NCBI RefSeq assembly: GCF_037126175.1
Contig: NZ_CP146986.1
Span: 5,704,501 to 5,768,500, forward strand
Source of the DNA: Pseudomonas sp. RSB 5.4
GTDB lineage: Bacteria; Pseudomonadota; Gammaproteobacteria; Pseudomonadales; Pseudomonadaceae
Direction of reading: 5' to 3'
DNA: 64,000 nucleotides
This document shows positions 52,919 to 54,447 of this stretch, piece by piece. The notes beneath the pieces were generated by a model. It did not search any database. It worked only from the letters and a program-made list of their open reading frames with translations, and was not told the origin of the DNA. Made by a program: the position numbers and the translations under genes. Position 1 is the first letter of the stretch, and every line of letters starts with the position of its first letter.

Positions 52919-53740
52919 GTAGGAGCCAGCCTGCTGGCGATGGTGGCCTGACAGCCGACCAATCTCTACCTGAATACACCGGGTTCAAACTGTGGGAGCG
53001 GGCTTGCTCGCGAAGGCGTCCTGCCAACTGACGGATCCATTGCAGATGTACTCAACCCCTGTGGGAGCCTGGCTTGCCAGCGATGGCGGCCTGACAGCCG
53101 ACCAATCTCTACCTGAATACACCGGGTTGAAATTGTGGGAGAGGGCTTGCTCGCGAAGGCGTCCTGATAGCTCACTGATCCATTGCAGATGTACTCAACC
53201 CCTGTGGGAGCCTGGCTTGCCAGCGATGGCTGCCTGACAGCCGACCAATTTCTATCTGAATAAACCGGGTAGAAATTGTGGGAGCGGGCTTGCTCGCGAA
53301 GGCGTCCTGCCAGCTCACTGATCCATTGCAGATGTACTCAACCCCTGTGGGAGCCTGGCTTGCCAGCGATGGCGGCCTGACAGCCGACCAATCTCTACCT
53401 GAATACACCGGGTTCAAACTGTGGGAGCGGGCTTGCTCGCGAAGGCGTCCTGATAGCTCACTGATCCATTGCAGATGTACTCAACCCCTGTGGGAGCCTG
53501 GCTTGCCAGCGATGGCGGCCTGACAGCCGACCAATCTCTACCTGAATACACCGGGTTGAAATTGTGGGAGCGGGATTGCTCGCGAAGGCGTCCTGCCAGC
53601 TCACTGATCCATTGCAGATGTACTCAACCCCTGTGGGAGCCTAGCTTGCCAGCGATGGCGGCCTGATAGCCGACCAATTTCTATCTGAATAAACCGGGTT
53701 GAAATTGTGGGAGCCAGCCTGCTGGCGATGGGGTTAGTCC
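52919..53740. repeat. Tandem array of 12 direct REP palindromes, 143-bp repeat unit
   Basis: REP starts (TGTGGGAG or TGTAGGAG) lie at 52919, 52991, 53060, 53134, 53203, 53277, 53346, 53420, 53489, 53563, 53632 and 53706. Copies at 52991, 53134, 53277, 53420 and 53563 have the GCGGGCTTGCTCGC core (one GAGGGC, one GCGGGA variant). The others have a second core, GCCTGGCTTGCCAGC, or at the two ends GCCAGCCTGCTGGC. The period is exactly 143 bp (five intervals from 52991 to 53706). All copies are in the same orientation, unlike REPINs. Short translated frames in it shift frame every unit and are not genes. Confidence 0.95.
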
Positions 53741-53911
53741 GGTCACCAAGGAGATTGGTCCTGTTTAAATCTGTGTCAAATAACCAGAACCTTCCCACAA
53801 GGTTTTCAGGTTGTCCCTCGGACGCCCGGTCTCTAGGCTTTGCTTGTCGCTGCCAATTCAGCGACCGGGAGGTGAGATACCCGATTTGGATCCCCAGACA
53901 AGTGCCCCCAT
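53741..53911. other. Non-coding interval with small hairpins before the candidate RNA
   Basis: Possible stems are ACCAA/TTGGT (53745-53759), AACCTT/AAGGTT (53788-53804) and CCCGGT/ACCGGG with TCGCTG/CAGCGA inside (53825-53869). No gene is supported. It may belong to the leader of the next gene. Confidence 0.4.
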
Positions 53912-54059
53912 AATTGCGGTCAGCTTTCGCTGTCAGCAATTCCTTATGGCGGCTATGTACGGGCGGACTTCGGTCCGGCCGGATTTGGGGTCCTTACCGG
54001 TAATCTCACTCCGTACATGGCTGCCACCTCTTCTCCGAGTGAGATCGGGAGCAAGTGGC
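53912..54059 (+). ncRNA. Candidate structured leader RNA with pseudoknot
   Basis: Seen directly: an AATTGC/GCAATT hairpin with inner CAGC/GCTG (53912-53941). Stem P1 follows, GGCGGCTATGTACGG at 53948-53962 with 54011-54025 (15 bp, two of them G-U). Inside it lie CGGAC-TTCG-GTCCG (53964-53977) and CCGG/CCGG (53979/53997). ATCTCACT (54003-54010) inside P1 is exactly complementary to AGTGAGAT (54038-54045) outside P1, forming a pseudoknot. The latter is in the loop of P3 (GCCAC 54023/GTGGC 54055; CTCC 54033/GGAG 54048). The structure ends 12 nt before the ribosome-binding site of the DUF6124-type gene, so a cis-regulatory role is inferred. P1 and P3 share three bases and cannot both be complete. 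Confidence 0.6.
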
Positions 54060-54084
54060 TGCAACACTTAAAAGGACTTGTTCG

Positions 54085-54447
54085 ATGGACAAACTGATCC
54101 CCGACCCACCCCACGAAGCTACAACGCCACCCGTCGACGCCATCCGGGTCGAAGACCTGGCCAAAGACCGTGAAGCCATCAAGCGCGCTGTCGATTTCTA
54201 CTTCACCCCGCAACCCGCCAAACCCCGACAACCCAGCACGATGTTCCTCGTCCACCCCAACGTCGATACCGAAACCCTGCTAGCCCACGCCTACGAATCG
54301 TTGGCCTCCGCCAGTGCCATGGCCAGCAACTTCGCCAACGAACTCAGTGGCCTGCAACGCAGCACCGCTCTGGCGATCCAGCAAATCATCATGCTCGCCG
54401 AACTGGCGGTAAACCGGGCGCTGGACCGAGTCGATCCACAGACCTGA
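54085..54447 (+). CDS. DUF6124/DUF3077-type pseudomonad protein
   Basis: This 120-residue protein starts at ATG 54085 after AAAGGA with 8 nt spacing. The N-terminal half is variable (LIPDPPHEATTPPVDA). The C-terminal half contains the conserved [32 protein letters not shown] and AIQQIIMLAELAVNRALDR, typical of a family largely restricted to Pseudomonas. Function is unknown. Preceded by the candidate pseudoknot RNA and followed by a REPIN. Confidence 0.8.
   Translation: MDKLIPDPPHEATTPPVDAIRVEDLAKDREAIKRAVDFYFTPQPAKPRQPSTMFLVHPNVDTETLLAHAYESLASASAMASNFANELSGLQRSTALAIQQIIMLAELAVNRALDRVDPQT

Follow-up and report, generated by a model that had tools for sequence, protein, structure and literature searches.

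We find that positions 53942-54031 of the window (the whole stretch of DNA analyzed here, 64,000 nucleotides from Pseudomonas sp. RSB 5.4) very probably encode a C4-type antisense RNA that lies in the leader of a DUF6124 gene and controls that gene. C4 is a phage antisense RNA first found in P1, and the best explanation for the sequences compared here is an expansion of phage-type C4 switches on pseudomonad chromosomes, which would have given rise to many largely private self-silencing units. Our computations support a C4 fold with covariation, complementarity to the target, cognate specificity and purifying selection on the protein, and we infer processing, a block of translation and action in trans from P1.

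Results

The initial annotation described a pseudoknotted RNA ahead of this gene, consisting of a 15-bp stem, a cUUCGg hairpin, a second hairpin and a perfect 8-bp long-range pairing, and considered such a density of structure hardly accidental. All of these elements are present. The stem joins 53947-53963 to 54010-54026 and has 17 pair positions rather than 15, the cUUCGg hairpin occupies 53964-53977 (loop 53969-53972), the second hairpin pairs 53978-53982 with 53997-54001, and the pairing of 54003-54010 with 54038-54045 is free of mismatches and can be lengthened to 9 bp (54003-54011 with 54037-54045). The region 53912-54084 folds at -71 kcal/mol (z -4.23), compared to a mean of -53.74 for shuffled sequences, and 0 of 200 shuffles were as low. 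What did not stand was the view that the leader has no name: an Rfam search returned the C4 antisense RNA (RF01695) together with its a1/b1 partner element (RF03163), and a riboswitch or unnamed leader was dropped because Rfam names the RNA. The long-range pairing is real, but instead of forming a pseudoknot it appears to correspond to the a'/a2 contact between antisense RNA and target in P1, which by analogy would be made in trans. That annotation did not include the b'/b2 contact on the Shine-Dalgarno sequence, the a1/b1 sites further upstream or the other 27 C4 of the genome.

Compared to the C4 family (Table 1), the segment scores above the gathering threshold (65.6 versus 45 bits) and has three helices with covariation. 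Its b' is complementary to the downstream ribosome site, with 6 Watson-Crick pairs, or 8 pairs when G-U is included, at -10.2 kcal/mol, and its a' is complementary over 9 bp to an a2 site right after C4. A second target pair, a1/b1, lies upstream; here the c4-a1b1 match only just reaches its threshold at 46.7 bits, b1 is bulged, and the longest unbroken run between the b' loop and the upstream region is 5 bp. Phage P1, which served as a positive control, scored 68.8 bits for C4 and 51 bits for c4-a1b1. A TTAT preceding GG is common to both C4 sequences. Between the Rfam match and the start codon lie 53 nt in the window (start codon at 54085) and, measured in the same way, 47 nt in P1. The icd and ant genes of a P1-type immI region were not found behind the window C4, and a DUF6124 gene stands there instead.

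Table 1. Parts of the C4 unit in the window (positions are those of the 64,000-nucleotide stretch)
Feature	Position	Strand	Basis or remark
Possible promoter TTGTCC-17-TAGGCT, weak	53811..53839	+	By-eye reading
c4-a1b1 element (RF03163), hairpin and C4 target a1	53833..53887	+	46.7 bits, exactly the gathering score
a1, GTGAGAT, complement of a'	53872..53878	+
b1, approximate, pairs with b' only if bulged	~53888..53897	+	Duplex -15.2 kcal/mol
Hairpin directly 5' of C4	53912..53941	+	Minimum-energy fold
C4 antisense RNA, Rfam RF01695	53942..54031	+	65.6 bits, gathering 45
Putative processed C4 RNA, 81 nt	53948..54028	+	Ends by analogy with P1 C4 (77 nt), from the alignment
b' loop	53983..53996	+	GTCCTT at 53990-53995 pairs with the Shine-Dalgarno sequence
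a', ATCTCACTC	54003..54011	+	9 bp with a2, duplex -14.0 kcal/mol
a2 target site	54037..54045	+	Pairs with a'
b2 target site, AAGGAC, on the Shine-Dalgarno sequence	54072..54077	+	Complement of GTCCTT in b'
DUF6124 gene, 120 aa	54085..54447	+	PF19619, 92.4 bits, cut-off 27

A consensus promoter scan at the window C4 unit found none, including at 53811..53839, and spacing like TTGTCC-17-TAGGCT recurs 5' of the a1/b1 hairpin in other C4 units. In the C4 units of G000, G019 and G049, a block CCTACA...CCTTGCG...CCAGAATCCGCCGGCTT precedes the presumed promoter. Of the 125 units, 58 have the CCAGAATCCGCCGGCTT part of this block with up to 3 differences, 24 have a second type and 43 have neither; the block may be part of the promoter or an operator. 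Just 5' of the window unit lies a tandem array (52937-53728; 143-bp unit, 5.5 copies, 93% matches) that contains REP-like GTGGGAGCGGGCTTGCTCGCGAAG stretches, and a search of the window for tRNA and tmRNA returned none.

The initial annotation proposed covariation in the upstream regions of DUF6124 genes as a check, and base pairs in these regions of named genomes do change on both sides in a shuffle test. In an alignment of the 28 C4 copies of the RSB 5.4 genome with that of P1, pairing is retained in 95.4% of cells and both sides have changed in 17 of 27 pairs, with 0 of 500 shuffles (which ignore relatedness) reaching either value. The C4 matches at DUF6124 loci of named genomes (n=79, 72 distinct rows, structure-fitted alignment) have 98.8% of their cells paired. 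Changes on both sides affect 12 of the 27 pairs, a value reached by 2 of 500 shuffles, and 156 cells, a value reached by 0 of 500, the shuffles again ignoring relatedness. The expected association of a covarying RNA structure with the DUF6124 gene was borne out when we started from the protein: a C4 match lies just upstream in 77 of 80 DUF6124 loci on named contigs (the best 80 of 485), while the other 3 have none at E <= 1. C4 also precedes 5 of 5 DUF6124 loci found in viral contigs, three of which are perhaps one sequence because their scores and positions are equal.

In P1, C4 is described as being cut by RNase P and acting on its target mRNA, where b' pairs at the ribosome site (PMC5320573). 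The P1 record AF234172 gives a C4 of 77 nt with a2 immediately after it, b2 just before icd and a1/b1 upstream, and has icd-ant translation repressed. By analogy, the C4 RNA in Pseudomonas would be transcribed within the leader of the gene under its control, with the second site pair a1 and b1 upstream of it, and would be excised from that leader (by RNase P in P1). The freed C4 would then act on transcripts of its own unit, its hairpin loop b' pairing with the Shine-Dalgarno sequence (b2) and its single strand a' with a2, so that DUF6124 would not be translated. Since each transcript would yield a repressor of further transcripts, DUF6124 would stay low unless C4 is missing, and the unit is likely self-limiting.

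An activating step resembling that of IsrK might be added to C4 repression without replacing it, in that a short a1/b1 RNA from the same promoter could serve as a decoy that captures C4 and frees the mRNA. The a1/b1 sites repeat the target sites upstream, isrK (RF01394) matches weakly over 53846-53926 in the a1/b1 region, and Salmonella IsrK is described as activating anrP in trans (PMC4825925). Against this, the 18 bits of the match are far under the gathering threshold of 50, short of family membership, and a scan gave no terminator-like site between a1/b1 and C4 in the window; we consider such a step unlikely. We give very little credence to a purely cis-acting leader, in which C4 stays in the mRNA and folds on its own leader as a pseudoknot or riboswitch gating ribosome access. 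While a'/a2 and b'/b2 are also able to pair inside one transcript, and 53912-54084 has a strong stand-alone fold, the match is to an RNA family described as antisense, the same two sites are repeated upstream as a1/b1, which would be superfluous for such a switch, and the P1 C4, which shares this layout, is described as undergoing processing and acting on target mRNA.

We compared pairing among all C4 of three genomes (28, 42 and 55 copies), using the 122 of 125 that have an ORF start. For b' and its own Shine-Dalgarno region, the longest run averaged 7.18, 7.14 and 6.85 bp, versus 4.11, 3.92 and 3.99 bp with those of other units, and a' paired with its own a2 over 7.11, 7.21 and 7.04 bp, versus 4.17, 4.25 and 4.03 bp for other units; the excess of cognate over non-cognate pairing was matched in 0 of 10,000 permutations in each case (relatedness uncorrected). 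Of 122 cognate pairs, 112, 94 and 78 had both contacts at a length of at least 5, 6 and 7 bp, compared to 291, 17 and 1 of 5,130 non-cognate ordered pairs; all three thresholds are reported, as 6 bp was picked after the pairings were seen. At 6 bp, 28 of 122 units fail the two-site test; as single sites, b' has such a run in 95 of 122 units and a' in 121 of 122, and there are no Ant loci among the 17 non-cognate pairs. The b' segments all differ within a genome (28/28, 42/42 and 52/52), and a' segments recur to some extent between units (20 distinct of 28, 28 of 42 and 39 of 52). When duplex energies, which ignore accessibility, are summed, only 77 of 122 units have their cognate target strictly in first place (18/28, 29/42 and 30/52), and this number is 51 by b' alone and 14 by a' alone. 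Because the cognate target is not always best by energy, some cross-talk is possible. The spacing from C4 to the start codon, 44-57 nt in 121 of 122 units, is partly built in because our start picker favoured an ATG at 44-60 nt, both in the three-genome set and in the set of DUF6124 loci (76 of 77 loci); the RSB 5.4 genome read without this preference has the same layout of C4 and gene. Most C4 units examined appear, by sequence, to pair best with their own gene, with little overlap between units of one genome. A shared regulon, in which the C4 of one unit would control many DUF6124 paralogs and the copies would form a network, could account for the 291 non-cognate pairs that pass both sites at 5 bp, for a' sequences common to several units and for cognate targets that are not best by energy. 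We regard it as highly improbable given that every b' is distinct within each genome and that non-cognate passes fall to 17 and 1 at 6 and 7 bp.

The genome of Pseudomonas sp. RSB 5.4 contains 28 C4 and 28 DUF6124 genes, as well as 26 c4-a1b1 elements at E <= 0.001, 9 of them above the cut-off. By coordinates, DUF6124 follows 22 of the 28 C4. Altogether 26 of the 28 DUF6124 genes sit behind a C4, 4 of them as second genes, and no C4 at E <= 1 is found near the remaining 2. At L012, L014, L018 and L024, a second DUF6124 gene lies behind the first with one C4 each, again by coordinates. In the genus sample, with 61 candidates scored per genome, 54 of 59 genomes contain C4 (above the cut-off in 53), for 1,014 copies and a median of 17, and G049 has the highest copy number, 55. 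C4 is sparser outside the genus: it was found in 20 of 145 genomes of the order sample, RSB 5.4 included, with at most 6 in any other genome, and in at least 24 of 369 genomes of the class sample, RSB 5.4 included, with at least 10 as the most in any other genome, where up to the 11 best C4 candidates per genome were scored. Among the matches listed for the class sample, from up to the 16 best DUF6124 candidates per genome, DUF6124 occurs in 1 of 369 genomes, namely RSB 5.4. Over the 59 genus genomes, the C4 count tracks the sum of DUF6124 and DUF3077 (Spearman 0.93, phylogeny uncorrected), and neither protein family is matched in the 5 genomes that lack a C4 match.

Scanning 113 of the 125 targets of the three genomes, we found 87 DUF6124, 5 DUF3077 and 4 Bro-N proteins, and an NCBIfam scan of these 113 returned no match. 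The Bro-N targets (L100, L127, L144 and L151) are in G019 and G049, and all 4 match phage Ant families. In six C4 units, an ORF of 24-53 aa ends in a stop codon that overlaps by ATGA with the start codon of a DUF3077-like gene, and five of these units coincide with PF11275 matches among those listed. Some units look broken, namely the three C4 without an ORF start and one with a split DUF6124. Four C4 targets in RSB 5.4 (L010, L034, L035 and L036) are small and lack any noteworthy Pfam match. Two of these, L035 and L036, share 68% identity, and both can be aligned with proteins encoded after C4 in other genomes. Outside the genus, b' has a run of at least 6 bp in 21 of 25 C4 loci read (of 27), a count that comes with no non-cognate control, and 4 of 10 downstream proteins scanned (22 listed) match Bro-N or KilA-N, one of them below the cut-off. 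The b' runs and Bro-N or KilA-N targets at these loci suggest that the C4 switch is a general device, of which DUF6124 looks like the pseudomonad cargo.

DUF6124 is a family of thousands of members, of which 3,338 were counted. The predicted structure of the window protein consists of a tail, one helix and a helical hairpin (pLDDT 78.7, pTM 0.48); a fold search against PDB and viral models gave no match at E <= 0.001, a sequence search against PDB gave no match, and neither did PADLOC on 37 DUF6124 members. Kinship with P1 Icd was rejected, with a profile comparison (hhalign) probability of 0.1, and the indications that DUF6124, DUF3077 and a third target group, unnamed, share an origin are weak. 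The dN/dS of DUF6124 is 0.03-0.17 compared with seven relatives, two of which have saturated dS and for which orthology is partly assumed, a range that supports purifying selection on the protein.

Of 30 genomes with nagE, 4 have a C4 no more than 1.5 kb away from it. In RSB 5.4, G019 and G055 this C4 represents one orthologous unit, with 74-77% DNA identity to the window, and in G053 a different unit. In several other genomes, for example at L196, L197 and L199, the flanking genes are close together without a C4. The three orthologous units have three b' codes (GTCCTT, GATCTCT and CCTGCT), each complementary to its own leader, and their stems remain alike; in the named relative L222, b' is identical to that of the window. 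Read from these sequences, the codes change together with their targets. That the units are phage remnants without present function seems most unlikely, for even though four Bro-N targets match phage Ant families, some units look broken and the nagE-side C4 is confined to 4 of 30 genomes, the low dN/dS of DUF6124 and the compensatory change in stems and targets speak against it, and the window protein matches only 1 record among 50,697 from phages and none among 72,556 from plasmids.

Discussion

The C4 RNA family is already known, as are multi-copy chromosomal C4-like RNAs in Acinetobacter baumannii (PMC5320573). Like the immI c4-icd-ant region of P1 and P7, the units described here contain a member of the same Rfam family, follow the order a1/b1, C4, a2 and b2 on the Shine-Dalgarno sequence, and have a small ORF about 50 nt past C4. 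In P1, icd overlaps ant1 by ATGA, as the short ORF does the next gene in six chromosomal units. In contrast to immI, the pseudomonad units carry DUF6124 rather than icd-ant as cargo, and they are chromosomal, multi-copy and have largely private codes. The Salmonella Gifsy-1 isrK-orf45-anrP region is similar in that a prophage RNA precedes a small ORF, which shares an AUGA overlap with an antirepressor-like gene, but IsrK is described as an activator (PMC4825925), and the isrK score of the window is well below threshold.

The C4-like RNAs of A. baumannii appear to be the nearest published parallel. Weiss et al. 2016 (PMC5320573) describe 21 Group 1 sRNAs, chromosomal, C4-like and similar to one another, which vary in their a' loops and whose coverage pattern suggests processing at GGW. 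As reported there, no targets were identified, and the authors suggest phage or bacterial mRNAs; the Pseudomonas C4, on the other hand, have likely targets directly downstream. C4 and c4-a1b1 motifs were predicted in Proteobacteria and phages by Weinberg 2010 and Rfam (PMC2864571), and their description there makes no mention of DUF6124, copy number or private codes. In the open-licence literature, mostly at the level of titles and abstracts, we found no report of a C4 expansion in Pseudomonas, of DUF6124 targets or of private codes, and no paper on DUF6124.

Taken together, the C4 of pseudomonads might constitute a library of up to about 55 self-silencing cassettes, spread over the genome and largely private in their codes, in which selection would keep the codes distinct and fast-changing and the targets matching, as in phage heteroimmunity or plasmid incompatibility. 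The small DUF6124 and DUF3077 proteins would then be made only after a cassette has entered a cell without its code, or upon a failure of C4 or of host RNA processing, for instance under phage attack, and the library would act as an RNA-coded self/non-self or infection-sensing repertoire. We offer this joint reading as a tentative one that is rather doubtful as a whole. The antisense reading itself provides DUF6124 with a first regulatory logic that is open to direct test. For most C4 examined, the likely target would be in plain sight, at the ribosome site of the next gene downstream. The units would also offer dozens of natural pairs of RNA repressor and target on one scaffold, well suited to studying how RNA specificity diverges.
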